DNA of 64,000 nt from Siphonodentalium dalli. Taxonomy: Eukaryota > Mollusca > Scaphopoda > Gadilida > Siphonodentaliidae. Below are positions 3,838 through 52,915 of this stretch, in pieces (the stretch's first letter is position 1; the number at the start of each line of letters is the position of its first letter). The stretch spans positions 47,672,443 to 47,736,442 of the forward strand of contig CP136068.1 in the NCBI GenBank assembly GCA_032622095.1, given 5' to 3'. The translations under genes and the position numbers were made by a program. Below the pieces are notes generated by a model, which was given only the letters and a program-made list of their open reading frames with translations, made no database searches and was not told the DNA's origin.

Positions 3838-3886
3838 ATAATTTTGGGTGGATGATTTAAGATGGAGAACATATTTCAGAAATTTT

Positions 3887-10112: not shown

Positions 10113-10677
10113 GCGATAGACCGCGAAAATGGTTAATGTCGTTGATTAGGCCCATTGTTTTTGCTGAAAATATATGATGCGTTGTGCATCATTTTATCTT
10201 GAGAATTACACTTTGAACCATGTTTAAGGTGTGGTTCTTGTTGGCAACAAGACCAATTGGACGTCCTCGAATAATTATAATTTCACAAAACAAGTAAATC
10301 ACCAGCATGTTATATTGTTACGCTATATATGTGTCAGAACTTTAATTTATATTTTTGTTACATGATTTAACATCATACCACATATATTACAATGCATAAT
10401 AAACAGCCATAAATATTTCGGCCCAACACTTTTGTATACAGTCAATGACCATTTATTCAACTTGTCACTGTGTTAAAGGTAGCGTCCGTATTACATATTT
10501 AAGATATGGACCTGTTCTCATTCTAATTTTTCATCGATCGACAGGCATGACATGTACATTTTCAAGCGCTTACATACACTTTATGTGTGGCTTTCCTCTT
10601 AAATGTGAATAGTTTTGAACTTTCAAGAGAAATAAAGTCATCTCATAATCTTCAATGTATGCTACATCTACCATGGA

Positions 10678-10869
10678 CATACAGTAATGCTCTAATTAAT
10701 CGACTTCTTAACCACAGCAGAATTATGGGTAACTTTTCAGGATTTAGTCGGAAATATGGCTTTTTGCCATTCATCAATGGCAACGAGCCATATTTCCGAC
10801 TAAATCCTGAAAAGTTACCAATAATGCTGCTGTGGTTAAGAAGTCGATTAATTAGAGCATTACAGTATG
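10678..10869. repeat. 190-bp hairpin (MITE-like)
   Basis: Arms of about 80 bp (10678-10760 and 10787-10869) are inverted copies with a few mismatches. The outer ends are CATACAGTAATGC / GCATTACAGTATG. The loop is itself a small hairpin (TTGCCATT...AATGGCAA). No target-site duplication was identified with certainty. Confidence 0.88.
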
Positions 10870-12860
10870 TAAACTGCATATGCGAAACACTTTAATGTTA
10901 CAGTTCTTTGTTCCTAAACAGGGTAAATTTAATGATATACCATGCCATAAACGTGGAGAAAGTGTGCTTATAATTCCAACTGATTGCTGATTCTTAACGT
11001 GTGAGTCTACACTAAATCCGGCCATTTATGCAACCACCTCCTATTATATTCAACAGAATATATGTAACACATGAATGAATTTTAGCGACGGATGGGTCAT
11101 TAAATCATTGTCATTGTACATCGTTTGGGTATTTTGCACTCGTCTGTGATTCAAATTCGTTCATTTGTTACATACGTTATGTTGAGTATTATAGGAGATG
11201 GTCCCATAAATGGTCGGATTTAGTGGACAGTACACATAATTGGACAAACTATTGTCTTACAAACAAAAACGTCCATAAAAACTGAAAAGGCCAACAACTA
11301 ACCCCTTTAACTGTTTGTACCAGTTATAACATATAGCACATATCAAAAACTTCTCCTAACGGATTTTGAGAAAGTCACTTTTTACATGTCATGAATGTTA
11401 AATACAATGTCCATGGAGGCCTTACAACACAATATTCACCTTCGTAGTATCTGCCCGACTGTCCAGAAAGGAACACTAACTAGGCTCCGAATTAAAATAT
11501 ATAAGTATTCGTTAGAGAAAATTATATGCATACGAGTAAAGCACAAATTTGCACTTTTCTGTCAGCTTAGAACTGTCCCCATGAACAATACTCTGCGTTG
11601 TCACGATATTAGTTACATTGACAACGTTAACGTCGCTACCAACAGAATATGGTGACATAACGGCTTCGTAGTAGACGCTGACTTGTCGATGGATAAGAAA
11701 CTTGGGGCTCTTTGATGGACAGATGGAAAATATATAATGATAGTGAATACAATTCGTTTATCCAACAACAGAACAACAAAAACATTTAGAAATTAGAGAC
11801 CGAGTAAAGATTGCATGATATTGATGAATGATGTTGAATCATTCAGTGATGTTATTGATGACTATTTGTCTTGATTCGATTTCCGTGATCGATTACTAGT
11901 TGTGCTAGTAGGCCTACTGAATATTGTAAATTATTCTTCAAACTTGAAATAATCATTCTTTGTTTAGGCAATTTTACATCATATCGATTGGTGTCATTTT
12001 GGGTGGGGAATATCCGGGATCATTTTCCGTGCGAATGCTTGTTTCAAAAGAGAATTAATATAGCACTAGCAGTGAGTTGTCGGTAGGCGCCGATCAGCTG
12101 ATTGACCAAAACAAGGGGTTCATGGGCTGAATGTCTACGTAATTATAATTCTGGTACTTTTGCGTGGCTAATTTGTCGAGCAGATACTAAATAAAATGCA
12201 CCGCTGGCGGGAATAGTTATATTCCACTGTGGCCACGAATGAGGTAATTCCAGTATTCACTCGAGAACCGCAGGTGTCCTCTATATATAGAAGACAACTT
12301 AACGTTTGACTCGATTACGCGCAGTGCAGTGACGTATTTTTCGCGCGTTGTCAATGACACCGTGATCCATATTAAACTATGTGCAGTTCAGTATGGTATG
12401 CTATGTTCAATAGAGATACACTACGTGCACGTAATAATATTATCTAATCGGTCCATCAAAAGAGTACTATCATATGGCCGCCTAAATTACATTTATAATG
12501 TCCACATACAGTATTTATGTCTACGTCAATCTAGGGATTACCGCATAGATCACTGATCTCCCTGATTAAAGCAACAGTTTACAATCGCATTTCGTAGTCA
12601 ATCAGACACCGCGTCCGTGACCATGCAGTATTTTCACGTACGATGACCAACTGCAATCAACACTTTCAATGTGTGTCTTTGAAAAATTACTCTGGTAGAC
12701 TTTGATTATTTTTCAATTGATTATGTCGACGAATAGTTAATTATTAAACTGTGTTAATTGTAAGCGATTATTAAATGGCCGATTCAACTTTAGGAAAGGT
12801 AACTAACCGAAGAGGGTTGAATAAATAATGACAGTTAAGAATATTCTACCTGTTTTGTAG

Positions 12861-13917: not shown

Positions 13918-16843
13918 TTAATTTGGGTATGTTTTATTGAGGTTTTGGTATGTTTTATGGAGGTTTTGGTATGTTTTATTGAGGTCTTGGTATGTTTCAT
14001 TGAGGTCTTGGTATGCTTTATTGATGTATTTGTATGTTTTATGTTTTATTGAGGTCTTGGTATGTTTTATTGAGATCTTGGTATGTTTTATTGAGTTCTT
14101 GGTATGTTTTATTGAGGACTTGGTATGTATTATTGAGTTCTTGGTATGTTTCATTGATGTCCCTTGGTATGTTTTATGTTTTATTGAGGTCTTGGTATGT
14201 TTTATTGAGGTCTTGGTATGTTTTATGTTTGATTGAGGTCTTCGTATGTGTTATTGAGGTCTTTGTATGTGTTATGTTTTATTGAGGTCTTGGTATGTTT
14301 TATTGAGGTCGTGGTATGTTTGTTGATGCTTTGGTATGTTTTATCGAGGTCTTGGTATGTTTTATTGAGGTATTGGTGAGTGTATTGGGTCTTGGTATGT
14401 TTTATTTAGGTCTTGGTATGTTTTATTGAGGTATTGGTATGTTTTATTGAGGTATTGGTATGTTTATTGGGTCATTGGTATGTTTTATTGAGGTCTTGTT
14501 ATGTTTTATTGAGGTCTTGGTATGTTTTATTGAGGTCTTGGTATGATTTATTGGGGCTTGGTCTGTTTTATTGAGGTCTTGGTATGTTTTATTGAGGTAT
14601 TGGTTTGTTTTATTGAGGTCTTGGTATGTTTTATTGAGTTCTTGGTATGTTTTATTGAGGTCTTGGTGTGTTTTATAGAGGTCTTGGTATGTTTATTGAG
14701 GTCTTGATATGTTTTATGTAGGTGTTGGTATGTGTATTGGGTCTTGGTGTGTTTTTTGAGGTCTTGGTATGTTTTATTGAGGCCTTGGTATGTTTTATTG
14801 AGGTCTTGGAATGTTTTATGGAGGTATTGGTATGTTTTATTGAGGTCTTTGTATGTTTATTGAGGTACTGGTATCTGTATTGGGTCTTGGTATGTTTTAT
14901 TTAGGTATTGGTATGTTTTATTGAGGTATTAGTATGTTTTATTGAGGTCTTTGTATGTTTATGGAGGTCTTGGTATGTTTTATTGAGGTCTTGGTATGTT
15001 TTATGGAGGTCTTGGTATGTTTTATTGAGGTCTTGGTATGTGTGTTGGGTCTTGGTATGTTTTATCGATGTAATGGTATGTGTTATTGAGGTTTTGGTAT
15101 GTTTTATTGAGGTCTTGGTATGTTTTAGTGAGGTCTTGGTATGTTTTATGGAGGTATTGGTATGTTTTATTGATGTCTTGATATGTTTTATTGAGGTCTT
15201 GTTATGTGTATTGGGTCTTGGTATGTTTTATGGATGTATTGGTATATTTTATGGATGTATTGGTATGTTTTATTGAGGTCTTTGTATGTTTTATTGAGGT
15301 ATTGGTATGTTTTATTGAGGTCTTTGTATGTTTTAATGATGTCTTGGTATGTGTGTTGGGTCTTGGTATGTTTTATTGAGGTCTTGGTATGTGTTATTGA
15401 GGTCTTGGTATGTTCTATTGAGGTCTTGGTATGTGTATTGGGTCTTGTTATGTTTTATTGAGGTCCTGGTATGTTTTATTGAGGTCTTTGTATGTTTTAT
15501 TGAGGTCTTGGTCTGTTTTATTGAGGTCTTGGTCTGTTTTATTGAGGTCTTGGTATGTTTTATGGAGGTATTGGTATGTTTTATTAAGGTCTTGGTATGT
15601 TTTATTGAGGTCTTGGTGTGTTTTATGGAGGTCTTGGTATGTTTTATTGAGGTATTGGTATGTTTTATTGAGGTCTTGGTATGTGTATTGGGTCTTGGTA
15701 TGTTTTATTGAGGTCCTGGTATGTTTTATTGAGGTATTGGTTTGTTTTATTGAGGTCTTGGTATGTGTATTGGGTCTTGGTGTGTTTTTTGAGGTCTTGG
15801 TATGTTTTATTGAGGTCTTGGTATGTTTTATTGAGGTCTTGGAATGTTTTATGGAGGTATTGGTATGTTTTATTGAGGTCTTGGTATGTTTTATTGAGGT
15901 CTTGGTATGTTTTATTGAGGTCTTGGCATGTTTTATTGAGGGCTTGGTATGTTTTATTGAGGTCTTGGTCTGTGTATTGGGGCTTGGTATGTTTTATTGA
16001 GGTCTTGGTATGTTTTATGGAGGTATTGGCATGTTTTATTGAGATCTTGGTATGTTTTATGAAGGTATTGGTATGTGTTATTGAGGTATTGATATGTGTA
16101 TTGGGTCTTGGTATGTTGTATTGAGCTCGCGGTATGTTTTATTGAGGTCTTGTTATGTTTTATTGAGGTCTTGGTATGTGTATTGGGTGTTGATGTGTTT
16201 TATTGAGGTCTTGGTATGTTTTATTGAGGTCTTGGTGTGTGTATTGTGTCATGGTATGTTTTATTGAGGTCTTGGCATGTTTTATTGAGGTATTGATATG
16301 TTTTATGGAGGTATTGGTATGTTTTATGGAGGTATTGGTATGTTTTATTGAGGTATTGGTATTTGTATTGGTCTTGGTGTGTTTTATTGAGGTCTTGGTA
16401 TGTTTTATGGAGGGATTGGTATGTTTTATTGAGGTCTTGGTGTGTGTATTGGGTCTTGGTGTGTTTTATTGAGGTCTTGGTATGCTTTATTGAGGTCTTG
16501 GTATGTGTATTGGGTCTTGGTATGTTTTATTGAGGTCTTGTCGTGTTTTATGGATGTATTGGTATGTTTTATTGAGGTCTTGGTATGTTTTATTGAGGTC
16601 TTGATATGTTTTATTGAGGTCTTGGTATGTTTTTTTAATGTCTTGGTATGTGTATTGGGTCTTGGTATGTTTATTGAGGTCTTGGTATGTTTTATGGAGG
16701 TATTGGTATGTTTTATTGAGGTCTTGGTATGTGTTATGGAGGTATTGGTATGTTTTATTGAGGTCTTGGTATGTTTTATTGAGGTTTTGGTATGTGTATT
16801 GAGGTCTGTATATGTTTTATTGAGGCCTTGGATCAAGTATTAA
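13918..16843. repeat. 2.9-kb minisatellite, 21-bp unit, about 140 copies
   Basis: The unit is TTTTATTGAGGTCTTGG plus GTAT. Variants carry TGGAGGTATTGG, and a 19-bp variant (GTGTATTGGGTCTTGG core) recurs irregularly, most often every 60-250 bp. Because 21 is a multiple of 3 and the unit has no stop in several frames, both strands show long spurious reading frames: heptads CFIEVLV and YVLLRSW on +, HTKTSIK on -. The 19-bp variant shifts the frame. The array lies within the intron that splits one Ig domain. Confidence 0.97.
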
Positions 16844-23559: not shown

Positions 23560-24574
23560 GTAATTTGCGTAGCCCGTAACTGATGCGTTGTTCTAGCCCA
23601 TGGTTGAATGGTCACGAGGCCTTCTCATTGAATAAATGTGCAAAATTGTATAAAAACCTGTAAAACATCACCACCTAGATGAAGATGGAGAAATATATAA
23701 ACTTTGTTCTTATTGTTATACTGAAAGTTCTCCAAACAAACACAATATATCGTATGTTGAACCGCTGCTATGTAAATAAAACTGTTACAGTGATTATTCC
23801 TTTTCAATAAAGCTCACCAATTGCGTAATACGTTAAAATAGTTAACGGTTAAATAGTTAAATAGTCTAAATATTATTTTTAAAATATTGTTCAATGCTTT
23901 GAACCTCTCCAATGTTTAATGTCAATACTGTTTTTGTTAAACTTTGGTATCTTATTGTACTAAAAGCTAAACGATGGTACTATTGACATTACAATTGACT
24001 ACATCTAAAAAGGCTCGATTGCATACTAACATGTCAAAATTAGTAAATAAATCATGTGCTGAAGATGACGAAGTGCCGAAACGTCCATGTGCGTTGGGTG
24101 GAAACAACAGAGTGTACAAACCCACGATCCTAAACGTCATGAACTTTAGGTCCAGACAGGTCCATATGTCGAACACTCCGCTCCACGTTAGACACTGGGA
24201 GCTATACCAACAACCATATGATGCATGCACTCGTCTGACGTACTCGCATGTCGAACACGATGGATCAGATTTATCTGTAAACGATTATCAGTGTGGCGAT
24301 GGAGTCAATCAGGTGGCCATGTAAAGGTAGATAACTCTGCCGGTAGTTTGGAGTGATACGTGTTCGATATAAACCTGTGTGCATGATTTATATAAGACAA
24401 TAACGACTGAAGTGAAATAGTTATCATCGATTAAAACTTGTATGACCAACTATTTCCTAGCACGAGCTGACTTTATGCCCCGCCCCCCTTACCGAATGTA
24501 CAAGCAAAATGGCCGTGCCAAATTGTGCTGCGACTGTCAACGAATTTGATAAAAAAAAAAACTGAAGTTATAAC
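23560..24574. other. Intron E-F, left of the palindrome
   Basis: About 1 kb. An unexplained open segment at 23974-24324 (116 codons, + strand) has varied composition but no recognised family, and the complement is also partly open. The 3' end contains copy 1 of a 155-bp duplication (24406-24560). Confidence 0.45.
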
Positions 24575-24580
24575 AATAGC
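24406..24580 (+). repeat. Copy 1 of an old 155-bp duplication, plus start of copy 2
   Basis: Copy 1 runs ACTGAAGTGAAATAG...CATCGATTAAAACTTG...ATGACCAACTATTTCC to about 24560. Copy 2 begins ACTGAAGTTATAACAATAGC (24561-24580). It is interrupted by the palindrome and resumes at 38528 with ATCGACTAAAACTTAT and ATGACCCACTATTTC. The copies are diverged by roughly 20% with small gaps, so they predate the insertion. Confidence 0.75.
24575..24580. repeat. Left 6-bp putative target-site duplication (AATAGC)
   Basis: AATAGC directly abuts the left end of the palindrome (TGATGATACCCC). The same six bases abut the right end at 38522-38527. Confidence 0.7.
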
Positions 24581-24769
24581 TGATGATACCCCGCCTGTTT
24601 GGGGTCATTTCAGGAACGATAACTCTATTCTCTGCAGTACACGGTGTTTGACCTATATTCTCCGCCCACGCATTGCATCATGGTCTATTTGTATGCCGGT
24701 TGTGCATGTCCGGACATGACCCGTTGGTTATATCCAATGGGATAATGTTAAAGTGACACTCGCATTGAA

Positions 24770-25050
24770 AACTTACAAAAAATTCAAAAATTCAAAAACT
24801 TCAAAAATTTCAAAAACTTCAAAAACGTCAAAAACTTCAAAAACTTCAAAAACTTCAAAAATCGCAAAAAATTTCAAAAAAGTTTAAAAACTTCAAAATA
24901 CTCAAAAATTTCAAAAAACTTAAAAAACTTTTCAAAAAGAAACAAAAATGAAAAACAGAAAAAAATTCATAAATATATGAAAAACTTAAAAAACTTCAAC
25001 TTTTTCTAAAATTCAAAAATACTTTAAAATTAAATTAAAATTAACTGTCT
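24770..25050. repeat. 9-bp CTTCAAAAA array in left arm
   Basis: Degenerate runs of AAAAACTTCAAAAA-type units. Mirror copy at about 38045-38330. The core has three perfect units here and four in the mirror, the largest arm difference found. Confidence 0.85.
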
Positions 25051-25179
25051 TTTAATATATCTAACCCACTGCCACTTCTAAGGGTTCCACACTACACCTG
25101 AGGGGATATTGAGTGGTCTACACACGTCTCCTAAACCCTAGAATAAGATCCAGCCCATAAGAAACACCGCCTCCTGCAA

Positions 25180-25296
25180 TGCCTGTCATTCGAATCTGAC
25201 GCAATCCCTACTTCTGGCGCAATGCCTGAGTCATTCGAATCTGGCGCAATCCCTACTTCCGGCGCAACGCCTGAGTCATTGGAATCTGACGCAATC
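25180..25296. repeat. 52-bp tandem repeat in left arm
   Basis: About 2.3 copies of a unit with CATTCGAATCTGACGCAATC and CCTACTTC(T/C)GGCGCAA. Mirror at 37797-37913. Confidence 0.85.
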
Positions 25297-26103
25297 CCTC
25301 GCGAAACCTACCGGCTGACTCCACACCCATCGGCTAAACGTTGTATCACATGCTTATTATTTGATCATATCGTGGAAATTCAATGTTTTGTCATCACTCA
25401 TGAGATATAACCCATATCCACTGAAAAAGGGTGGATATCCTCTATTTATTTATAATTTTTTCTTTGTTATCTTTTTTTTATCCCTCTTTTTTATCTACCA
25501 CTTCCTGTTTTTATTCGCTCTTCTTTTTCTTACAACTTCTAATCCCTCATAATCTTCGAATATCCACTTTCATCTCCAAGTTTTTGAAAAAATTCCTTGT
25601 TTAGTAGCACCTCCAGATGGGCTCTATAGAATTTGAACGAGGCATCCATCTTGGATATTACTCTTTCTATGACTAAATCCGTTAGCACGCTCTACAGATA
25701 TCATATAGGTAGCACGCTCTACAGATGTCATATAGGCCTCTTCACATCTTGTTTTCCATAATTTATTCATTCCTAATCGCTCCATTGACTGTAACAAATT
25801 AAATTACCCCCTCCCCCTGTATTTAGAATACATCCTTGATTATTAATATTTCCTCCTTTCATGGTGTGCATGTTCCTTGGGACATCTTTGCTAATGTGAA
25901 GCCACACCTATTATATATATATATATATACAACTTTAAAAGCCCGCGAAAATATTACTCATATTATAGACTTCCCTTTGAAGACCTTTGTATGTGACAAT
26001 GATCCGTAATATTGTTTCTAAGTGACACTGGCCAGTGAAACTGATACTACGGGTATGAACTAGCCAACTTCACATCGTAACAATAATAAAAGGGACACTT
26101 CAT

Positions 26104-26409
26104 CTATATCAGTCTCAAAACGTGTTGGTACACATCTGTGTGGAAACTAAAACCAATCACTCTTCGTCCGTCATCCGTACATAATTGTAATATAATTTTC
26201 TCAGAAACCACGGGATCCCTTTGGCTGAAATTTGGTCTCAACATGGGATAAGAAATTATCCATGGAAGACAACAGTGTCCGTGTGGGGGAGAAGCTTCGT
26301 AGTGTTTCGCTGTCGCCATGGTGTTTGTTTGGGTATAGGCATGGGTGGTGAGTGTGGTTCTCATATGGTATGAACTAGCCTTTACTGACTGAGGTAATTT
26401 AGTGCACAT
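26104..26409 (-). CDS. Hypothetical distal ORF, left arm
   Basis: 101 codons reading away from the centre, including an ATG at about codon 31 (MATAKHYEASPPHGHCC) and a varied C-terminus ending VYQHVLRLI. No family recognised. An identical copy is at 36684-36989. Confidence 0.2.
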   Translation of the reverse strand: MCTKLPQSVKASSYHMRTTLTTHAYTQTNTMATAKHYEASPPHGHCCLPWIISYPMLRPNFSQRDPVVSEKIILQLCTDDGRRVIGFSFHTDVYQHVLRLI

Positions 26410-27369
26410 GTCATCACTTCACTGATAACCATTATATGGTCAAATCCCTACACTATCAAACGCAATGTTTCAATAATGGGTTTTCTTAAAATTTTGACTA
26501 AATATTGGTTATATTATACGCATCAGCGATCCTTCTTAATAACGCTCTGTATATTTTCAAACGCATTGCACTAAATGGGTTTGGAATAGCCATACAGGAA
26601 AGGAGAAACTGAGGTCCTGGGTAGGTCGACTGCATATAGCAGTATATATGGGGTACAGACATGGACAGCAATGGGTTCCTCGTGGCTTCTGGTCTACACA
26701 TGACATATTAAAGTTAACCACACCCATCGGCGCGCCTTTATTGGGCTATGAAGCGCCATACAGGCTCGAATCATGGCCTTCGCCATGTGTTTCTATTTGA
26801 ACCCACATTAGTAACTAAATAAAATCTTTCTCTCCAGGTTGTTTCACGCCATAACCTTGATTTGGAAAGCTTGAAGGGCTAATTAAGCTTCAATTTAAAT
26901 CCCAACATTTTCTTATTTGAAGAACGTATCTGGTTAAACATGTCCACCATAGTAAGCTCATTTAATTCAAAGAGCTTCACACATAGTCCCACTAGTAATG
27001 ATGTGTCGTTATTTACTACAGAAATGGTCATATAGAATACAATACAACACATTTTGGTCACATACCTTAAAGGTGCACGTCACTTTCGCAAGATATCGAA
27101 CTGACCATGTATAGAGTGGAATGACATGTCGGGTATCAAATGTATAATCAGTTCCAGTATTTCGTCCATAAGGCAGTTTTGGTTGTAACATCATTGTGTA
27201 TGACGGTTCATTCATATGATATCTTAGCGGTTGCACACGATACTGTCTGTTGTATTTTATGTCTTATATCATGTATATTAATTGCTCCATGGATGGTAGG
27301 AGTATGGCATTGGTGTCTGGTTCTTCGATGTATTCTAGTCATAGTTCATTCATATTATTACTCTAAAAT

Positions 27370-28560
27370 CTCCATTAAATGGAGAAACTAAAGAGCCCAT
27401 ATTATGTAGACTAGTGTATAAATACTTACTTCATGCATTATTTTTATCAATTATATGTATTATAACTCCCATCAAGATAGGCTGTTATACAGAGGAAACA
27501 AAGCATGTACCAAGTGACAGTCTGTACCAAGTGACAGTCTCATGTCACGAAAGGCCTACTATGTGGACACATTTTCTTATCAAAACGCTCTATTATGTAG
27601 GGGGTTATCAACCATTGGTCTGGAAAAGGCATACGAGCGGAAGGCGTGTATACACATTTATTCGATGTACTCTTTAATCGTCGATTTCTCTTTATTGTCG
27701 TTAATTTATAGCATTATTAGTAGGAATCTAAACTCGCCGTTATATTGAGAAAATAATGCGTCAATACCAGTCAATACTGCTTTATTGGCGGTAAATGAAA
27801 TTATTGAATCATGTATCGCAGCTAAACAAGCGAGACAACTGATCACAACACAAAAATTAGTAATATTTCTGAAGCCTTGAGTGGGTTGTAATACACAGTG
27901 TAAATTTTCATTATTGCTACCATTTAAGGAAACATGCCCCCGATAGGGCTACTATGCGAACACATGTCTATATTAATTTCACATATTCCTTACCGTTCAT
28001 TCATATATACTCCAAGCTCTCTGTTAATACAGAGGCATCAAAACATTGGTCTGGAAGAGACCTACTATGTGGATGCGTGTATACATATTTACTTGATGTA
28101 TTCTTTAATCGTTCATTTCTCTTTATTATCGTTCATTTATAGCATTATTAGAAGAAATTTAGTCTAAAATCTCCATTACATGGAGACAATAAAGAGCCCA
28201 TATGGTGTAGACTAATGCATAAATACTTACTTCATGTATTCTTTTCACCAATTATATGTATTGTACATCCTATACATTTAGTCCGTTATACAGAGGAAAC
28301 AAAGCATGTACTACGTGGCAGTTTCATATGACGATAAGACCTACTATGTGAACACATGTGCATATTAATTTCACATATTCTTCTCAAAACGCTCTATTTT
28401 ATACGGGGGGGTATCAAACATTGGTCTGGAAAAGGCATGCTATGTGGACGCGTGTATACATATTGACTTCATATATGCATTCATAGTTCATTTCTCTTAA
28501 TTGTCGTTCATTTAATAGCATTATTAGTAGAAATATAGTCTAAAACCGTCGGTATATGGA
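27370..28560. repeat. Roughly 400-bp interspersed-tandem repeats in left arm
   Basis: Blocks recur: CAAACATTGGTCTGGAA at about 27610, 28040 and 28410; AGAGCCCATAT and GTAGACTA near 27393 and 28193; CGTTATACAGAGGAAAC near 28280 and a variant near 27485. Copies are 70-85% similar. The mirror lies at about 34530-35720. Confidence 0.75.
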
Positions 28561-29929
28561 GAATATATAGCGTCAATACTGTTTTATTGTTGGTAACTCA
28601 AATTATTGCATTATGTATCGCAACTAAACAAGCGAGATAACTCATAAATTCTTAATAGTTCTGATGTCTATGGCAGTTCACACAGTGTATATTTTCATTG
28701 TTGTTACCATTTTAGTGCATACATTACTGATTTCTGTGTAAGAACGCCGGTCTCCATTGTTGTTATGATTGTGCCTATAACTGTCCATATTCTTAAAGCA
28801 AGTACGGTACCTCTATGTGATATGATCTATAAAAATTTCCATTTTCACAGGTAAATCACGTATAAACGCTCTTTAATGTATAGTTAAACTGAGTTTTCAC
28901 ATGCAGGGCTATGTCTTTGTGGACTATATACGTGGTATACTTCAGTATATACACGAAGTGAATGTGTTCTAAGTATACGTATCTGATTTATGTATACGTC
29001 CGTGTTTCTTAAAGCAAATCCAATACATATTAGTGCGTTATATTATGATGTACATTAAGTGCCCTTTTCACTGTTAAATCAAGTAAAAAGGCCCTCTACT
29101 ATAGTTAACTATTCAGTTCCACGTACGCTATAAGATCTATGGTGGTCCGGTGTGTCTTATCAATATGCCATTATATGCACGAATGTAATGTGTTCAAATA
29201 TGTGGGTTATGATGTATACTTTAATGTTAAAGTATATAAGCACTCTTTAAGATATGCATATGCAGAATGTTGCCTCTTTACACTGACAGAAAAAAAAGGA
29301 ATATATAATTTTGAGTACTACTCTTCATAAAACGTTAGAAAACCATAATCTAACAACGAATATCGAAGAACAATGTAATTACTTGATAAGCATTGTAAAT
29401 ATTTCGTCTGTTTTAAATAAAATGGAAATATTTCGTCTATTTGAAATACAGTTGGAAGCAACAATCAAGTATTTAAATGAAATTTGGACCAAAATCTTAT
29501 AATTTGAGAAAACGTATATAATTTCTATCGAAGTCTTATAATAAAGGAAGGCTTTGTGCGAATCCATTCGGTCTAATGTGTGAATGTGTTCATCATCGCA
29601 AATATAATGATGCAGAAATGAATATTTCCTAGAATAATGTTAACATAGCTTGTATTTAACCGAAATAATATAGCATTTGAGTTAAAATGTTTCATATTAG
29701 GACCATAACGAACCAATGCATAAAAATACAATATTTTGTTTTTCATTCTCGATCAAAATAATGCAGGGTTGTCAATTATCAACAAAAAACAAATACTTTG
29801 AAACAAAAACGATGACATAAGAAGGAATATCCAAGAGCTAGTGTGAAAATAACCCTCACATTTATAAAAAAAAAACAATAAAATTAAAGTTTTCGAGTAA
29901 GTCCTTCAAATTTATTGAATTTTTTCGTC

Positions 29930-31170
29930 TATGTTGGATCAAATTTGACACAAAAATCAATTAGCTCACTAACAGTTCGCGCAATATCTCATATTTTGAG
30001 AAAACGTTTGCAATTTTAGACAACAATATTGCTAGTGAAGGTGAATATTTCATCCTGGAACTCATGAAATATGATAAAAATAGATGTAAAGACACTTCAC
30101 GAGCCCTCATATATTTGAGTTATGAACATAAAGTCATCTCATAGTGCCATTGTACCCCATAATTTGGTCAGGAGAAATATGTATTTCATATTTGACCCTT
30201 CATCTGTGGTAAAAAATGAATTAAGGGACATGGGAGTGGTGTCCCTGGACATTAACCTAGAGCATAAATTGACTCAATTATGCAATTTTAGGCAACATTC
30301 TTGCCAGGGAAAGTGTATATTTCATGTTGGAACTCATCCAATGTGATAAACATGCATCATAAGACACTTAATGAGCTCTGATGACTTTGAGTTATGACAA
30401 CAACGGCATCTCATACTAGATTGTAAGCCATAATTTGGTCAGGAAAAGTGTAAATTTCATATTTTATCCTACATGTTTTTTAACAATCAATGTAATTACA
30501 CCCCATCGGTCGCCTAGACACAGCGTAAATGTTCTCAAGTTTTCAATTGTAGGCCACAATGTCGGCAGTGAAGGTAAACATTTCATGTTGGAACCCATGA
30601 AATGTGATAAAATGGATAAAAAGACACTTCCTGAGTCCTTATGACTGAGTTATGAACATAAAGGGAACTCATAGTGTATTGTAGGTCATAATTTGGTCAG
30701 GAAAATTGTAAATTTCATGTCTTAAGCTCCATGTGTTTTTAAAATATATGTAATTACAACCATTGGGTCCCTAGAGATCAATCCACAGTCCATGTGTAGT
30801 CCATATGCAATTTTAGGGAACAGTTTTGCTAGTGAAGGTGAACATTCCATGCTGGAACTCATGAAATATGATAAAAATAGATGAAAAGACACTTTCTGAG
30901 GCCTTGGTCGGGAGAAATGTGTATTGTATTTTGACCCTTGATGCGTGGTAGCAATCAATGAAATTACACCCCATGGTATCCTCAGATATGAAGCAACATC
31001 ATAAATGCACTCAGTTTTGGCAATTTAGACAACATTGTTGATGGGGAAGTTGTACATGTCATGTTGGAACTGGTGAAATGTGATAATAATTGATCAAAAG
31101 ACACTCGATGAGCCCTGATGGGTTTCAATTATGGTCATAAAGGCATCTGATAGTGTCATTATACAACGGG
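29930..31170. repeat. Roughly 265-bp tandem repeats in left arm, about five copies
   Basis: The marker AAGACACT recurs near 30090, 30360, 30622, 30888 and 31100, each followed by a GAG(C/T)CCT-like block, TGAGTTATGA-like text and CATAATTTGGTCAGGA. Spacing is about 268, 262, 267 and 213 bp. The mirror lies at about 31920-33160. Confidence 0.85.
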
Positions 31171-31378
31171 GAAATTTGTGAAGCGCTAACAAAGCGTATC
31201 TACACGGTGTTATACGATCCAAAATGATCCTGATATAAGAAATGCAATCTAGATCATACTCAGTATCTTCGTATCGACTGAATATATCGTTATTCGATGG
31301 TGTTTCCGACATACCTCCGTCTTTACTTTTCTTATGCCTTTGTGAATTGTAGTTCGTCGATAATATATTTCTGCACAA
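31094..31378 (-). CDS. Hypothetical centre-proximal ORF, left arm
   Basis: 94 codons reading outward from the palindrome centre. An inner ATG with a fair start context gives MSETPSNNDIFSRYEDTEYD. The middle (SYIRIILDRITPCRYALLAL) looks protein-like. The tail reads into the 265-bp repeat. No family recognised. An identical copy is at 31715-31999. Confidence 0.3.
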   Translation of the reverse strand: MCRNILSTNYNSQRHKKSKDGGMSETPSNNDIFSRYEDTEYDLDCISYIRIILDRITPCRYALLALHKFPRCIMTLSDAFMTIIETHQGSSSVF

Positions 31379-31530
31379 ATGGCACCCGTGTATTGTCTCG
31401 AATCATGGGAAGAACTATCGTCCTTATACCAGCGAAAAGATGAGCGAATATGGTGTGGTATTATAAACTCGCCGCCTTCGTACCTCTATTTATCGTTTAG
31501 AGTTAATGTTCTTAGATAAAAAATAGGCGC

Positions 31531-31560
31531 GCGTGCGGCCCCCTCATCCCCACTGCCGCC
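31531..31560. other. Palindrome centre spacer, GC-rich
   Basis: About 30 bp, strongly GC-rich (CGGCCCCCTCATCCCCACTG core), flanked by GGCGC/GCGCC. This is sharply different from the AT-rich arms. The flanking 75 bp hold most of the arm-to-arm mismatches I found. Confidence 0.85.
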
Positions 31561-31714
31561 GCGCCTATTTTTTTTATCTAAGAACAATTACTCTAAACGA
31601 TAAATAGAGGTACGAACGCGGCGAGTTTATAATACCACACCATATTCGCTCATCTTTTCGCTGGTATAAGGACGATAGTTCTTCCCATGATTCGAGACAA
31701 TACACGGGTGCCAT

Positions 31715-31999
31715 TTGTGCAGAAATATATTATCGACGAACTACAATTCACAAAGGCATAAGAAAAGTAAAGACGGAGGTATGTCGGAAACACCATCGAA
31801 TAACGATATATTCAGTCGATACGAAGATACTGAGTATGATCTAGATTGCATTTCTTATATCAGGATCATTTTGGATCGTATAACACCGTGTAGATACGCT
31901 TTGTTAGCGCTTCACAAATTTCCCCGTTGTATAATGACACTATCAGATGCCTTTATGACCATAATTGAAACCCATCAGGGCTCATCGAGTGTCTTTTGA
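31715..31999 (+). CDS. Hypothetical centre-proximal ORF, right arm
   Basis: Mirror of 31094-31378 with the same translation, also reading outward from the centre. The two ORFs diverge from a shared centre of about 340 bp that could serve as a bidirectional promoter if the element is real. Function unknown. Confidence 0.3.
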   Translation: MCRNILSTNYNSQRHKKSKDGGMSETPSNNDIFSRYEDTEYDLDCISYIRIILDRITPCRYALLALHKFPRCIMTLSDAFMTIIETHQGSSSVF

Positions 32000-34900
32000 T
32001 CAATTATTATCACATTTCACCAGTTCCAACATGACATGTACAACTTCCCCATCAACAATGTTGTCTAAATTGCCAAAACTGAGTGCATTTATGATGTTGC
32101 TTCATATCTGAGGATACCATGGGGTGTAATTTCATTGATTGCTACCACGCATCAAGGGTCAAAATACAATACACATTTCTCCCGACCAAGGCCTCAGAAA
32201 GTGTCTTTTCATCTATTTTTATCATATTTCATGAGTTCCAGCATGGAATGTTCACCTTCACTAGCAAAACTGTTCCCTAAAATTGCATATGGACTACACA
32301 TGGACTGTGGATTGATCTCTAGGGACCCAATGGTTGTAATTACATATATTTTAAAAACACATGGAGCTTAAGACATGAAATTTACAATTTTCCTGACCAA
32401 ATTATGACCTACAATACACTATGAGTTCCCTTTATGTTCATAACTCAGTCATAAGGACTCAGGAAGTGTCTTTTTATCCATTTTATCACATTTCATGGGT
32501 TCCAACATGAAATGTTTACCTTCACTGCCGACATTGTGGCCTACAATTGAAAACTTGAGAACATTTACGCTGTGTCTAGGCGACCGATGGGGTGTAATTA
32601 CATTGATTGTTAAAACACATGTAGGATAAAATATGAAATTTACACTTTTCCTGACCAAATTATGGCTTACAATCTAGTATGAGATGCCGTTGTTGTCATA
32701 ACTCAAAGTCATCAGAGCTCATTAAGTGTCTTATGATGCATGTTTATCACATTGGATGAGTTCCAACATGAAATATACACTTTCCCTGGCAAGAATGTTG
32801 CCTAAAATTGCATAATTGAGTCAATTTATGCTCTAGGTTAATGTCCAGGGACACCACTCCCATGTCCCTTAATTCATTTTTTACCACAGATGAAGGGTCA
32901 AATATGAAATACATATTTCTCCTGACCAAATTATGGGGTACAATGGCACTATGAGATGACTTTATGTTCATAACTCAAATATATGAGGGCTCGTGAAGTG
33001 TCTTTACATCTATTTTTATCATATTTCATGAGTTCCAGGATGAAATATTCACCTTCACTAGCAATATTGTTGTCTAAAATTGCAAACGTTTTCTCAAAAT
33101 ATGAGATATTGCGCGAACTGTTAGTGAGCTAATTGATTTTTGTGTCAAATTTGATCCAACATAGACGAAAAAATTCAATAAATTTGAAGGACTTACTCGA
33201 AAACTTTAATTTTATTGTTTTTTTTTTATAAATGTGAGGGTTATTTTCACACTAGCTCTTGGATATTCCTTCTTATGTCATCGTTTTTGTTTCAAAGTAT
33301 TTGTTTTTTGTTGATAATTGACAACCCTGCATTATTTTGATCGAGAATGAAAAACAAAATATTGTATTTTTATGCATTGGTTCGTTATGGTCCTAATATG
33401 AAACATTTTAACTCAAATGCTATATTATTTCGGTTAAATACAAGCTATGTTAACATTATTCTAGGAAATATTCATTTCTGCATCATTATATTTGCGATGA
33501 TGAACACATTCACACATTAGACCGAATGGATTCGCACAAAGCCTTCCTTTATTATAAGACTTCGATAGAAATTATATACGTTTTCTCAAATTATAAGATT
33601 TTGGTCCAAATTTCATTTAAATACTTGATTGTTGCTTCCAACTGTATTTCAAATAGACGAAATATTTCCATTTTATTTAAAACAGACGAAATATTTACAA
33701 TGCTTATCAAGTAATTACATTGTTCTTCGATATTCGTTGTTAGATTATGGTTTTCTAACGTTTTATGAAGAGTAGTACTCAAAATTATATATTCCTTTTT
33801 TTTCTGTCAGTGTAAAGAGGCAACATTCTGCATATGCATATCTTAAAGAGTGCTTATATACTTTAACATTAAAGTATACATCATAACCCACATATTTGAA
33901 CACATTACATTCGTGCATATAATGGCATATTGATAAGACACACCGGACCACCATAGATCTTATAGCGTACGTGGAACTGAATAGTTAACTATAGTAGAGG
34001 GCCTTTTTACTTGATTTAACAGTGAAAAGGGCACTTAATGTACATCATAATATAACGCACTAATATGTATTGGATTTGCTTTAAGAAACACGGACGTATA
34101 CATAAATCAGATACGTATACTTAGAACACATTCACTTCGTGTATATACTGAAGTATACCACGTATATAGTCCACAAAGACATAGCCCTGCATGTGAAAAC
34201 TCAGTTTAACTATACATTAAAGAGCGTTTATACGTGATTTACCTGTGAAAATGGAAATTTTTATAGATCATATCACATAGAGGTACCGTACTTGCTTTAA
34301 GAATATGGACAGTTATAGGCACAATCATAACAACAATGGAGACCGGCGTTCTTACACAGAAATCAGTAATGTATGCACTAAAATGGTAACAACAATGAAA
34401 ATATACACTGTGTGAACTGCCATAGACATCAGAACTATTAAGAATTTATGAGTTATCTCGCTTGTTTAGTTGCGATACATAATGCAATAATTTGAGTTAC
34501 CAACAATAAAACAGTATTGACGCTATATATTCTCCATATACCGACGGTTTTAGACTATATTTCTACTAATAATGCTATTAAATGAACGACAATTAAGAGA
34601 AATGAACTATGAATGCATATATGAAGTCAATATGTATACACGCGTCCACATAGCATGCCTTTTCCAGACCAATGTTTGATACCCCCCCGTATAAAATAGA
34701 GCGTTTTGAGAAGAATATGTGAAATTAATATGCACATGTGTTCACATAGTAGGTCTTATCGTCATATGAAACTGCCACGTAGTACATGCTTTGTTTCCTC
34801 TGTATAACGGACTAAATGTATAGGATGTACAATACATATAATTGGTGAAAAGAATACATGAAGTAAGTATTTATGCATTAGTCTACACCATATGGGCTCT

Positions 34901-36683
34901 TTATTGTCTCCATGTAATGGAGATTTTAGACTAAATTTCTTCTAATAATGCTATAAATGAACGATAATAAAGAGAAATGAACGATTAAAGAATACATCAA
35001 GTAAATATGTATACACGCATCCACATAGTAGGTCTCTTCCAGACCAATGTTTTGATGCCTCTGTATTAACAGAGAGCTTGGAGTATATATGAATGAACGG
35101 TAAGGAATATGTGAAATTAATATAGACATGTGTTCGCATAGTAGCCCTATCGGGGGCATGTTTCCTTAAATGGTAGCAATAATGAAAATTTACACTGTGT
35201 ATTACAACCCACTCAAGGCTTCAGAAATATTACTAATTTTTGTGTTGTGATCAGTTGTCTCGCTTGTTTAGCTGCGATACATGATTCAATAATTTCATTT
35301 ACCGCCAATAAAGCAGTATTGACTGGTATTGACGCATTATTTTCTCAATATAACGGCGAGTTTAGATTCCTACTAATAATGCTATAAATTAACGACAATA
35401 AAGAGAAATCGACGATTAAAGAGTACATCGAATAAATGTGTATACACGCCTTCCGCTCGTATGCCTTTTCCAGACCAATGGTTGATAACCCCCTACATAA
35501 TAGAGCGTTTTGATAAGAAAATGTGTCCACATAGTAGGCCTTTCGTCACATGAGACTGTCACTTGGTACAGACTGTCACTTGGTACATGCTTTGTTTCCT
35601 CTGTATAACAGCCTATCTTGATGGGAGTTATAATACATATAATTGATAAAAATAATGCATGAAGTAAGTATTTATACACTAGTCTACATAATATGGGCTC
35701 TTTAGTTTCTCCATTTAATGGAGATTTTAGAGTAATAATATGAATGAACTATGACTAGAATACATCGAAGAACCAGACACCAATGCCATACTCCTACCAT
35801 CCATGGAGCAATTAATATACATGATATAAGACATAAAATACAACAGACAGTATCGTGTGCAACCGCTAAGATATCATATGAATGAACCGTCATACACAAT
35901 GATGTTACAACCAAAACTGCCTTATGGACGAAATACTGGAACTGATTATACATTTGATACCCGACATGTCATTCCACTCTATACATGGTCAGTTCGATAT
36001 CTTGCGAAAGTGACGTGCACCTTTAAGGTATGTGACCAAAATGTGTTGTATTGTATTCTATATGACCATTTCTGTAGTAAATAACGACACATCATTACTA
36101 GTGGGACTATGTGTGAAGCTCTTTGAATTAAATGAGCTTACTATGGTGGACATGTTTAACCAGATACGTTCTTCAAATAAGAAAATGTTGGGATTTAAAT
36201 TGAAGCTTAATTAGCCCTTCAAGCTTTCCAAATCAAGGTTATGGCGTGAAACAACCTGGAGAGAAAGATTTTATTTAGTTACTAATGTGGGTTCAAATAG
36301 AAACACATGGCGAAGGCCATGATTCGAGCCTGTATGGCGCTTCATAGCCCAATAAAGGCGCGCCGATGGGTGTGGTTAACTTTAATATGTCATGTGTAGA
36401 CCAGAAGCCACGAGGAACCCATTGCTGTCCATGTCTGTACCCCATATATACTGCTATATGCAGTCGACCTACCCAGGACCTCAGTTTCTCCTTTCCTGTA
36501 TGGCTATTCCAAACCCATTTAGTGCAATGCGTTTGAAAATATACAGAGCGTTATTAAGAAGGATCGCTGATGCGTATAATATAACCAATATTTAGTCAAA
36601 ATTTTAAGAAAACCCATTATTGAAACATTGCGTTTGATAGTGTAGGGATTTGACCATATAATGGTTATCAGTGAAGTGATGAC

Positions 36684-36989
36684 ATGTGCACTAAATTACC
36701 TCAGTCAGTAAAGGCTAGTTCATACCATATGAGAACCACACTCACCACCCATGCCTATACCCAAACAAACACCATGGCGACAGCGAAACACTACGAAGCT
36801 TCTCCCCCACACGGACACTGTTGTCTTCCATGGATAATTTCTTATCCCATGTTGAGACCAAATTTCAGCCAAAGGGATCCCGTGGTTTCTGAGAAAATTA
36901 TATTACAATTATGTACGGATGACGGACGAAGAGTGATTGGTTTTAGTTTCCACACAGATGTGTACCAACACGTTTTGAGACTGATATAG
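36684..36989 (+). CDS. Hypothetical distal ORF, right arm
   Basis: Mirror of 26104-26409 with an identical translation. It could equally be a chance open frame, since the arms as a whole are not coding-like. Confidence 0.2.
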   Translation: MCTKLPQSVKASSYHMRTTLTTHAYTQTNTMATAKHYEASPPHGHCCLPWIISYPMLRPNFSQRDPVVSEKIILQLCTDDGRRVIGFSFHTDVYQHVLRLI

Positions 36990-38521
36990 ATGAAGTGTCC
37001 CTTTTATTATTGTTACGATGTGAAGTTGGCTAGTTCATACCCGTAGTATCAGTTTCACTGGCCAGTGTCACTTAGAAACAATATTACGGATCATTGTCAC
37101 ATACAAAGGTCTTCAAAGGGAAGTCTATAATATGAGTAATATTTTCGCGGGCTTTTAAAGTTGTATATATATATATATATAATAGGTGTGGCTTCACATT
37201 AGCAAAGATGTCCCAAGGAACATGCACACCATGAAAGGAGGAAATATTAATAATCAAGGATGTATTCTAAATACAGGGGGAGGGGGTAATTTAATTTGTT
37301 ACAGTCAATGGAGCGATTAGGAATGAATAAATTATGGAAAACAAGATGTGAAGAGGCCTATATGACATCTGTAGAGCGTGCTACCTATATGATATCTGTA
37401 GAGCGTGCTAACGGATTTAGTCATAGAAAGAGTAATATCCAAGATGGATGCCTCGTTCAAATTCTATAGAGCCCATCTGGAGGTGCTACTAAACAAGGAA
37501 TTTTTTCAAAAACTTGGAGATGAAAGTGGATATTCGAAGATTATGAGGGATTAGAAGTTGTAAGAAAAAGAAGAGCGAATAAAAACAGGAAGTGGTAGAT
37601 AAAAAAGAGGGATAAAAAAAAGATAACAAAGAAAAAATTATAAATAAATAGAGGATATCCACCCTTTTTCAGTGGATATGGGTTATATCTCATGAGTGAT
37701 GACAAAACATTGAATTTCCACGATATGATCAAATAATAAGCATGTGATACAACGTTTAGCCGATGGGTGTGGAGTCAGCCGGTAGGTTTCGCGAGGGATT
37801 GCGTCAGATTCCAATGACTCAGGCGTTGCGCCGGAAGTAGGGATTGCGCCAGATTCGAATGACTCAGGCATTGCGCCAGAAGTAGGGATTGCGTCAGATT
37901 CGAATGACAGGCATTGCAGGAGGCGGTGTTTCTTATGGGCTGGATCTTATTCTAGGGTTTAGGAGACGTGTGTAGACCACTCAATATCCCCTCAGGTGTA
38001 GTGTGGAACCCTTAGAAGTGGCAGTGGGTTAGATATATTAAAAGACAGTTAATTTTAATTTAATTTTAAAGTATTTTTGAATTTTAGAAAAAGTTGAAGT
38101 TTTTTAAGTTTTTCATATATTTATGAATTTTTTTCTGTTTTTCATTTTTGTTTCTTTTTGAAAAGTTTTTTAAGTTTTTTGAAATTTTTGAGTATTTTGA
38201 AGTTTTTAAACTTTTTTGAAATTTTTTGCGATTTTTGAAGTTTTTGAAGTTTTTGAAGTTTTTGAAGTTTTTGACGTTTTTGAAGTTTTTGAAATTTTTG
38301 AAGTTTTTGAATTTTTGAATTTTTTGTAAGTTTTCAATGCGAGTGTCACTTTAACATTATCCCATTGGATATAACCAACGGGTCATGTCCGGACATGCAC
38401 AACCGGCATACAAATAGACCATGATGCAATGCGTGGGCGGAGAATATAGGTCAAACACCGTGTACTGCAGAGAATAGAGTTATCGTTCCTGAAATGACCC
38501 CAAACAGGCGGGGTATCATCA

Positions 38522-38527
38522 AATAGC
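38522..38527. repeat. Right 6-bp putative target-site duplication (AATAGC)
   Basis: AATAGC follows the last base of the right arm. Removing the palindrome and one copy gives a continuous sequence that aligns with the upstream 155-bp duplicate at 24406-24560. Confidence 0.7.
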
Positions 38528-38666
38528 ATCGACTAAAACTTATATGACCCACTATTTCTCCAGACGAAGTGACAGTACGCCTCCTTGACGAATGTTCATG
38601 TGAGTAAAATGCCCATTCCAAAGTTTTTCGACTTGAATATCCATATAGGCAATGTTTATTTTCCAG

Positions 38667-38817
38667 ATCCGCCGGTGATAAATATCGTCAACGCATACGG
38701 GGGTGTATCTCAGATCGGGGATGTTATCGAGATGACATGCATGGCCGCATCCGGAGTAGCGATGACGGAAGATACCCAGTGGTTCCGAAATAACGTTCCC
38801 GTGGCTGATATCACACA
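38667..38817 (+). CDS. RTK exon F: N-terminal part of an Ig domain
   Basis: The acceptor is TTATTTTCCAG. The phase-1 entry reads DPPVINIVNAYGGVSQIGD, then IEMTCMAAS with the first Ig cysteine, then DTQWFRNN with the core Trp. The frame meets a stop at about 38825, so the exon must end before it. The donor ACACA|GTTAGC (phase 2) is the one that joins exon G in frame, but it is weak. Unlike exons B and D, the intron lies past the Trp, so this Ig belongs to a second split type. A possible 36-nt phase 1-1 mini-exon lies at 38562-38597. Confidence 0.8.
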
Positions 38818-41246
38818 GTTAGCATAATAGTTTTTATACATGAAATGGCGCTTGTGCACACGTCCTCTTGAAAATGGTGGCATTTTTAGTCGTGACCTTT
38901 TTAGAAACGAAAATAAGATTATAGGGACAACCATTTAATTAAACTTTGCTTCCAAGTTGCATATATTGCTAAAACGCTAGCGAGCACATTATCGTAACCC
39001 GTTTATATATAACCGTGGGTATATGCGAGAAATACACAAGGACAACACACTCCACATTTTGGAGCGAACAAATATGCCAAATGCAAAAACTTTAAAAAGT
39101 CGCGAGGGGCATCATTGATTGAGTCTGGGATATTTGGCTCTAGGTAAGGTTTGCGTTGTGGGTGGGGTCTCCATGTTGGAGTTTCCAACTGCTTCCCCAC
39201 CCCTTGAACCACACCAATCTCACAAGTTTGCGTAACCCATTTTGCACCCCCTCTGGGGCTTTGATTTTCCCCAACTGTTCCCCTCAGACCACTATATGGT
39301 AGCGCTATTTTGAATGAGTCATTAGTATTTTGGCAACTAGCCATGCAGGGGGGTGGAATGGATGGTTCGGCCCAGTATGATAATTTGTTTTACAAACATT
39401 AACATTAGAAAATACTAACATCTAGTGGTCTAATGCCTGGCACATTCACACCCCGATTTGTTTTTCTTAACTTAATTAGAAGTTTTTGACTGGCCACTGA
39501 GAAGGGATCAGGACACGGGTTGGTGATTTTCAAACTGACACCACCCTAAGGTTGGATAATTGCCAACTGATGACCATTTCAGTCCAAAATTTTGCAAATG
39601 AAAGGAAAGAATTTTAACCTATTTTGGGTGTGAATTTCCGACTAATGTTGCATCATGTGAGACACCCGCATAACCACCCATGTCGTCGCCACGTCCCTGC
39701 TTGGCATTCGGTCTTGCATTCACCGAAGACGAGAAGTAATCGATATTAGATTTTGCTGGAAAACAGGGGTGGCACACGGGGAGGGCAGGGGGCTACAGCC
39801 CCTGTCGATGAGAGTTATCACCCCTCCGTCTGGGAGGTATGCAATGGTCAGCCGAGTAGCTATAACCCTCCCCTGTCAATTAATATTGTAGCCCCTGCGT
39901 CTGTGATATACTGGAGCCACCCCTGTTGGAAATTTTAAAGAGCACATGCAGAGTAGAAATGAGGGGGGAATAACAAGGAAAGCCTGTGCTCACGTAACCT
40001 CAAAACTTCATGAAAGACATCACAATTAGCCCAAATTGGATGCAGTCCCATGTGTTATATATGTATGGTTTCGTCCTGTTGGCCTCACTGTATCATATAT
40101 ATTCGGTCTCCAAAAAACCATTAAGCCCACTCGATTTGCGGTTTCATTGGGCTCCTGTTTCGCAAAATCCAGTATAAAAAGTGCGTCTATGTCAGACAAA
40201 GTTCAAATATAAAATCTGACCAGACATAGAAACAGCTAATCCCATTACCAATCTAACAACACAATTCGAACATCTTTACCATTCAAAACAATAACACCCG
40301 GCACCAGCTTATGGTTATCAACAGACACACTCACCATGGTCAACTACACGGTCAAAAGCACTATGCTTTTTACGGTTATATCTCGTTATATATAAACGGG
40401 CTTTGAGCATCTGGCCGCTAGTCTTATTTTATTACATGCTAGGATAATTAGTAACTTCTAAGTCTAAAATGAGCGTATTGCTATTACAAATTATTTGATC
40501 ATATCAACATTCAAGTTGTATTTCCAAGTGATCAATCCACATACTAAATATGAAAGCATCTATCGTAGGTTTCGGTATAATCCGGAACACAAACCAATTT
40601 TAAGTCGAAACGGGTCAGAAATGTCAACTAGTTTTCAAGTTATCGCCCTGACAGCAAATGTTTCGGACGAATGGAATATCTGTGGCGGGACGTGTTAACA
40701 ACCAGACGGACGGACAGACACCGATAATTAATACCAGTCTTTGTGTGGGTATAGCAATATTTGAATTATCGTAAAATTTTATCCTAAATGTGGACTTAAT
40801 ACTAAAAAATGAAGCTAAAATAGCGTGAAATGTTAAAATGGTAAATAATGTAATATATCAACATGCATGTATATGTATGTTTGTTACACAATGAACCTAC
40901 AAATTCATTTTGGTTCATATTGGACTTATTTGATTCTTGAATGAGCTCATAGTGGACCTATACATGTTATTCCGTTTGTGGCGCGGGCCACAGTGAAAAC
41001 ACATTATAGAGAGCGCTCATCTGATTTAGGTTCATATAGACCGTTATTCCGATTCAAATAATGCCGATATTGGCTTATTTGTGTTTTGGAAATAAGTTTA
41101 ATATTGAATATGTCCGACAGCGAGATGTAAACCGTCGACAATTACGCGGTGCAAATATAAATTACAAGTGCATGGATACCCGCTGCGAAAACCATCGTGT
41201 CACGTTTCTGACCATTTATAAACCGCAACATTGTGTTTCGTTCCAG
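38818..41246. other. Intron F-G
   Basis: 2.4 kb. It contains a 186-bp TIR element at 39751-39936 and a GC-richer open - strand segment at 39003-39344 with no recognised protein. The segment 40979-41033 shares CGCGGGCCACAGTGAAAACAC with the repeat family near 51960 and 54350, in inverted orientation. Confidence 0.5.
39751..39936. mobile_element. Short TIR element (MITE-like)
   Basis: Inverted ends ACAGGGGTGGC (39762-39772) and GCCACCCCTGT (39916-39926), with looser pairing outward (TTTTGCTGGAAA / GGAAATTTT). The interior is C-rich (CTACAGCCCCTGTC), unlike the surrounding intron. Confidence 0.6.
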
Positions 41247-52538: not shown

Positions 52539-52915
52539 CTTAGGTGTTTATAAAAGAGTGCCTAGGGCATATGTCCATCATCGGTCGCGCGTGTGTCTAC
52601 TACGTTCAGTCGCGGCAAGTTTAAAGTTCGAACAGCTTTATAAATATGACTGACTTCGTTAGCTAATGTCTAGAACACTGGCATTGCATCATGAATTGTT
52701 AAGTGTGTTTGGCAGTTGATACTGAGAACAAACTCGGAAATGGCTGACTCTATATCTGCATCGTTTAGAGAAATACGCCATCAAATCTGAGATGACTTCA
52801 TATGTGTAGTGCATTTATCCGAACATATTTTGACAATCCTCTGACCGGCTGGTTTTGAAAACACGTGGAATTGTACATGGTGAACAGCTTATTAATGATC
52901 CAATTTCTTTACCAG

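Follow-up and report, generated by a model that had tools for sequence, protein, structure and literature searches.

Can a near-perfect palindrome of some 14 kb be a genuine part of an animal genome? The question is raised by a locus of the scaphopod Siphonodentalium dalli (assembly GCA_032622095.1, contig CP136068.1, positions 47,672,443 to 47,736,442 of the forward strand), a stretch of 64,000 nucleotides that we call the window and whose numbering is used below unless another handle is given. Long perfect palindromes are regarded as unstable, and the initial annotation of the window left two options for this one: a new giant fold-back element, or an assembly or read fold-back artefact. We confirm that the palindrome is real and not an artefact of assembly. 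Beyond that annotation, we find that it belongs to a dispersed family with the ends of a Polinton/Maverick and that movement seems to restore the symmetry of its arms. It is probably a non-autonomous Polinton/Maverick, a coding-free satellite of full length that would arise by snap-back copying and be inserted by the Polinton integrase.

A near-perfect palindrome inserted in the window

Comparison of the window with itself gave a single inverted match, which spans 24581-38521 and has an identity of 99.6%. It pairs a left arm of 6,952 bp (24581..31532, + strand) with a right arm of 6,965 bp (31557..38521, - strand) around an asymmetric loop of 24 nt, GTGCGGCCCCCTCATCCCCACTGC (31533..31556, + strand), which is present in one or the other orientation in the window and in all 10 copies that we fetched whole. 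Each arm is the mirror copy of the other. This agrees with the initial annotation, which had described a giant near-perfect palindrome with few arm differences and mirrored positions summing to 63093; the sum holds inside an indel of 9 bp and is 63102 at the outer ends. The indel is one unit of a tandem array (24827/38266-38274), and the other differences are five single bases (27546/35547, 30477/32616, 31476/31617, 31504/31589, and 31506/31587), two bases in a run of A, and the loop edge. The arms also hold a 45-bp array beside the 9-bp array, units of ~800 bp that are 78% alike (27358..28645, + strand), and units mostly ~265 bp apart (29965..31152, + strand), both of these sets being mirrored in the right arm. 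A six-frame Pfam scan of the arms gave no match above the cut-off, its lone row being a weak FAD_binding-like one (0.03), and we rejected a hidden transposase in the arms on this basis. Rfam and tRNA scans of the window gave no matches.

The element starts with TGATGATACCCC and ends with GGGGTATCATCA, and the hexamer AATAGC stands at both borders as a target-site duplication (TSD), with identical copies at 24575..24580 and 38522..38527 (+ strand). An exact 6-mer at this fixed offset has a chance of 0.0004 in the window. The host sequence around the element is a tandem duplication. Its intact copy (A1, 24378..24535, + strand) aligns across the joined flanks and can therefore be used as a paralogous empty site, and the right part of the copy broken by the element (A2) lies at 38528..38632 (+ strand). 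The alignment of A1 scored 119 with the left flank and 99 without it, a gain equalled by 0.6% of random left flanks. Hence, A1 gives moderate support to an insertion at this locus.

A dispersed family with target-site duplications

We searched the 2.23-Gb assembly (nine contigs) for relatives of the palindrome. The 24-mer of the loop has 109 exact occurrences, and its reversed control has none. Most of these sites are known as coordinates; the window, the 10 whole copies, and one more were read through both arms. The central 1.1 kb matched on both strands at 40 of 40 scored places (window included; 596 first-look candidates), and for a 901-bp segment of the arm, 40 full matches were scored out of 1,270 candidates, at 23 loci, 17 of which have inverted pairs 8-10 kb apart. 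The host genome thus contains roughly a hundred relatives of the palindrome.

The ends of 21 palindromes were examined (the window, the 10 fetched whole, and 10 by their ends). In 19 of them TGATGATA was found on both arms together with identical 6-bp TSDs; the exceptions are L052, truncated on one side, and L068, whose left tip lies outside the fetched stretch. The copies L058 and L060 have their TSD and flanks in common, with 370/370 identical bases on the right and no mismatch but five gap positions on the left. They therefore represent one insertion duplicated with its surroundings, which makes L060 a segmental duplicate of L058 and leaves 18 independent insertions. With this many sites, TSDs arising by chance could be rejected, and the 6-bp duplications show at the level of sequence that the palindrome transposes. 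Palindrome lengths range from 13,941 to 14,578 bp, with a mean of 14,139 (n=19; the length of L050 was calculated by hand). Two variants stand apart: two exact loops lie just 125 bp from each other in an unusual centre (C8:130701367 and 130701492), and L044 has an extra ~300 bp near its tip that is the same on both arms, i.e., a symmetric insertion.

We also considered a prokaryotic or phage origin. A 17-mer of the tip has 31 matches in the GTDB contigs (257 Gb), where ~30 are estimated by chance, and none of these 31 loci matches the arm by BLAST. A 24-mer has no match in IMG/VR. Such an origin was rejected.

The palindromes share their ends with a Polinton

The right arm of L050 is broken by a second element bearing the same tip (C8:44948470-44962898). 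This nested element has 14,429 bp, tips of 109 bp that are 97% alike, and the TSD AATATG on both sides. Its open reading frames (ORFs) match a retroviral-type DDE integrase (rve, 5.8e-11), a polymerase (DNA_pol_B_2, 6.9e-9, on an ORF of 253 aa at L082:641-1399, - strand), TBP (8.5e-15), and PC4 (3.6e-13); a chromo domain match (0.0051) is below the cut-off. These matches identify it as a Polinton/Maverick. The TBP-like and PC4-like proteins (L051:4807-5340 and L082:4361-4879) are possibly the Polinton's own transcription factors. An ORF of 426 aa sits in the place of the major capsid protein (MCP). Among the 98 scored of 1,958 candidate matches to this MCP-like ORF in the genome, at least 49 are full-length at 95% identity or more, 47 of them without stops (the 49 include both arms of the palindrome L084 described below). 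Other matches, at 47-55% identity, form a second, diverged lineage with many open copies, and there may be at least two Polinton lineages in the genome.

The similarity between the palindromes and the Polinton concerns their termini. The palindrome tip is 73% identical to the left end of the Polinton over 355 columns and 80% identical to its right end over 97. In the window, the part in common with the Polinton terminus (24581..24927, + strand) comprises the tip TGATGATACCCC... and most of the 9-bp CAAAAACTT-type array. The tip of the Polinton is identical to that of the palindrome L070 (0/32 mismatches), and both kinds of element have TSDs of 6 bp (19/21 of the palindromes examined). Since tip, TSD, and length match those of the nested Polinton, the palindromes look like non-autonomous Polintons of nearly equal length (13.9-14.6 kb). 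When the palindrome was compared with 12 Polinton ORFs, no alignment had an E value below 0.049. With the Polinton pieces read, homology is confined to the tip, and a derivation of the arms from Polinton genes was rejected accordingly.

Across L040-L079, the first ~200 bp of the tips are mosaics of a few interchangeable cassettes, and the first 22 nt agree between both arms in 19 of the 19 copies with both tips read. It is as if tips were swapped during copying.

Palindromes made from the left end of a Polinton

Among the matches to the MCP-like ORF, seven pairs lie within 12 kb in convergent orientation, and one further pair is divergent. The three closest of the seven convergent pairs were fetched, and all three are palindromes of the left end of a Polinton. 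L084 has 9,021 bp, the TSD AATATA, and a loop of 487 nt between arms that differ at 1 of 4,267 bases. L085 has 7,757 bp, a loop of 247 nt, and arms that differ at 1 of 3,755 bases. The fold junctions of both lie at inverted microhomologies of 7 nt, and microhomology of at least this length occurs at 0.07% of random junctions (chance 0.0007). These two coding derivatives of the Polinton show the event that forms palindromes in a fresh state. Both fold junctions are followed by AATATCC, which places the putative 3' ends 7 nt past GGATATT on the + strand of the Polinton; this may indicate a nick or stop site, or be due to chance.

The third, L086 (8,277 bp, TSD CATCAC), has coding arms of 3.7 kb and a palindromic middle of ~860 bp, or ~430 bp per arm, that has no match to the Polinton pieces read. 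Its centre is possibly a step towards a coding-free palindrome. The tip of L086 is identical to that of the non-coding L070 (0/32 mismatches), that of L085 to those of L042, L046, L054, L062, and L064 (0/32), and that of L084 differs from that of L048 at 1 of 32 positions. Because the tips of coding palindromes match non-coding ones in this way, tips seem to circulate between coding and non-coding elements.

Arm symmetry seems to be renewed between copies

The differences between arms bear on how the palindromes are copied. They number 2-15 bases per copy in the 11 copies compared, and 9 of 10 copies have private differences, seen in no other copy. Arm divergence is 0.03-0.38% within a copy and 0.10-0.87% between an arm and its nearest counterpart in another copy; own partner and other copy are about equally close in L046 (0.09 vs 0.10%) and L050 (0.38 vs 0.38%). 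A bias in mismatch type among the first few arm differences was dropped, as all six types occur over 10 copies.

We then counted asymmetric sites in 10 copies, separately for the outer arm (5,000 gap-free columns, arm positions 1482-6500) and the inner 452 columns, leaving out L050 (right arm interrupted), any gapped column, and arm positions below 1482 (where L052 is truncated). In the outer arm, there are 42 asymmetric sites, each in a single copy, and none is shared. Shared minor alleles are on both arms in every carrier at 66 of 67 sites, and 73 further minor alleles are private yet on both arms. The inner 452 columns give the opposite picture: 7 asymmetric sites are common to at least two of the 10 copies (one being the loop edge), 13 are found in one copy, and the shared minor alleles are symmetric in no case and mixed in 11. 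As no outer asymmetry is shared, differences in the outer arm postdate insertion, and none was observed to be transmitted to another copy. Hence, a new insertion is apparently mirror-symmetric over its arms, the inner ~450 bp excepted, where asymmetries are inherited between copies; in the window, this inner zone of the left arm corresponds to 31080..31532 (+ strand). In L042, most arm differences cluster near the loop.

The segmental duplicates L058 and L080/L081 allow the age of such differences to be ordered. Eleven substitutions and one indel between arms predate the duplication, and all 12 are kept in both duplicates; four further differences are each found in a single arm of the four. 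The loop-edge columns and a TA repeat, variable in each of the four arms, were excluded from this comparison. The persistence of old differences suggests that symmetry does not come mainly from ongoing conversion.

Proposed snap-back copying and its alternatives

These observations can be accounted for by the following scenario, which we favour. The PolB of the Polinton would replicate the element through strand displacement, primed by a protein. A single strand reaching a few hundred bases beyond the loop at its 3' end would snap back, anneal to the opposite arm by short inverted homology, and be extended along that arm out to the tip; old arm differences would therefore be erased. A second round would give a duplex palindrome, and the Polinton integrase would insert this product. 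The symmetry of the outer arms, the fold junctions, and the sizes of the loops would all follow from snap-back copying, and so would the inheritance of the inner zone. At ~450 bp, this zone is comparable in width to the loops of 487 and 247 nt. With less weight, the conserved length of 14 kb could result from packaging in a Polinton capsid. A single-stranded intermediate is part of an earlier Polinton model, extended to casposons with a panhandle in the excerpted text of PMC4046053.

Three other explanations have to be weighed. Perfect palindromes are typical of missed-adapter reads, which speaks for the fold-back artefact envisaged in the initial annotation. This artefact is refuted for the family by the 109 loop occurrences, against none for the control, and the 18 independent TSDs; moreover, 40 of 40 scored places are palindromic, 19 of 21 copies have matching TSDs at both outer junctions, and the arms carry differences, some of them private in 9 of 10 copies. 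We consider an artefact exceedingly improbable, and the other option of that annotation, a new giant fold-back element, stands. Such an element could be a cut-and-paste transposon of Mutator, P, or hAT type, in which slow gene conversion between resident arms maintains the similarity of the long arms. The internally repetitive inverted arms with almost no middle do recall Foldback, Galileo, and Tetris as the excerpted literature describes them, and the duplicated pair leaves room for some conversion in place. However, the tips and 6-bp TSD are those of the resident Polinton, the 12 old arm differences persist in both duplicates, and not one outer-arm asymmetry is common to the 10 copies compared, which makes this explanation very unlikely.

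The third explanation keeps the non-autonomous Polinton but derives its symmetry from mismatch repair of a full-length single-stranded hairpin instead of snap-back resynthesis of the outer arm. The displaced strand would fold as a hairpin of 7 kb, symmetric resetting is what we observe, and the inner zone is patchy in some copies. Yet repair should proceed up to the loop, whereas the 7 shared asymmetric sites all fall within the inner 452 columns, the outer 5,000 having none, and two coding palindromes have microhomology at their fold junctions, a mark of priming. Repair of this kind thus seems improbable, though less so than the two preceding explanations.

Several points weigh against snap-back copying of a Polinton satellite. 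Hairpin mismatch repair would also give symmetry, albeit without predicting the inner zone. One of the 67 shared minor alleles of the outer arm is mixed, one arm of L042 differs less from L046 (0.10%) than from the other arm of L042 (0.17%), and the four single-arm differences of the duplicated pair could be younger than the duplication or could be old ones converted in the other duplicate. L085 lacks a TSD (AACTTT vs TCTGTG). Outside the outer ~350 bp, comparison of the arms with the Polinton pieces read gave no homology. As for the partner, a single Polinton copy (n=1) was read at both ends; the PolB match is on the 253-aa ORF only, the adjoining ORF of 562 aa being without match. For the MCP-like ORF, neither Pfam nor PDB gave a match, IMG/VR gave no confirmed relative, and the one PHROG found is weak (0.0062) and of unknown function. 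The match of the packaging ATPase (Pox_A32, 0.013) is also weak and below the cut-off, which leaves packaging in a capsid hypothetical.

A palindrome with about a hundred relatives in one genome is of interest in itself, given the presumed instability of such long palindromes. Some viruses carry defective, palindromic satellites, and our results suggest that endogenous polintoviruses do so as well. In its fullest form, this would be a virus-satellite system within a single genome, in which a palindrome devoid of coding sequence and of viral length depends on an endogenous polintovirus, is replicated as a hairpin, has its second arm resynthesised in each cycle, is sized by the capsid, and trades terminal cassettes with its helper. 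We hold this fuller account tentatively, with a slight lean towards doubt. If it is true, the genome holds a readable record of the replication intermediate of Polintons. The contrast between shared and private arm differences is also sequence evidence on Polinton-type copying, which the excerpt of PMC4046053 presents as a proposed model.

Other features of the window

A putative immunoglobulin-domain-like exon, read from one frame, is found ~140 bp to the right of the palindrome (38660-38830), and a kinase-like exon at 52865-53221 (Pfam 0.0005, below the cut-off). The element may thus lie in an intron of a receptor kinase gene. The window also contains a satellite of 2.9 kb with ~139 copies of a 21-bp unit (13926-16831), a fragment of reverse transcriptase (3887-4366, - strand; RVT_1, 9.7e-12), and a separate hairpin of 194 bp, 94% complementary, with ends ACATACAGTAATG (10677-10870), perhaps a small miniature inverted-repeat transposable element.

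Comparison with known systems

Polintons/Mavericks (polintoviruses, adintovirus-like) are the closest system, by the 6-bp TSD, the tip, a similar length, and a partner with DDE integrase and PolB. The palindromes differ from them in having no detected coding capacity and an inverted repeat along the whole length. The ends of the palindromes and of the partner are TG..CA, whereas Polinton ends are AG..TC. The TSD of Polintons is given as 6 bp in the excerpt of PMC10045372. The partner and the palindromes (14 kb) are slightly under the 15-20 kb that the excerpt of PMC4046053 gives for elements with protein-primed PolB. Among the matches listed in a search of titles and abstract beginnings of the open-access literature, no report of palindromic Polintons or satellites was found; nor were integrated palindromes among those listed for protein-primed replication.

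The 6-bp TSD is also shared with GingerRoot and IS3EU, and the termini of GingerRoot are occasionally TG..CA according to the excerpt of PMC10045372. The tips of our element flank a Polinton, and both candidates were set aside once the nested Polinton was found; no search for their transposases was made. Foldback-type elements (FB, Galileo, Tetris, Tm1), as portrayed in the excerpted literature, resemble the palindrome by their long, internally repetitive inverted arms and tiny or absent middle. They differ from it by its arms of 7 kb, its 6-bp TSD, its Polinton tips, and the resetting of symmetry between copies. Foldback-type elements have a partner with a Mutator-, P-, or hAT-type transposase and TSDs of 7-10 bp. 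In our case, a Polinton is the partner found and the TSD has 6 bp; no search for Mutator, P, or hAT transposases was made. The same excerpted literature places Galileo in the P superfamily and Tm1 in Mutator, unlike the Polinton-tipped palindrome.

A last comparison concerns the way in which palindromes arise. In protein-primed replicons such as adenoviruses, defective genomes that are palindromic originate via a snap-back intermediate. These share with our elements the inverted duplication of the left end and, in the scenario favoured here, the snap-back and a replicon that is copied by strand displacement. Unlike them, the products described here are integrated, most of them with a TSD, and one kind has become a high-copy family.

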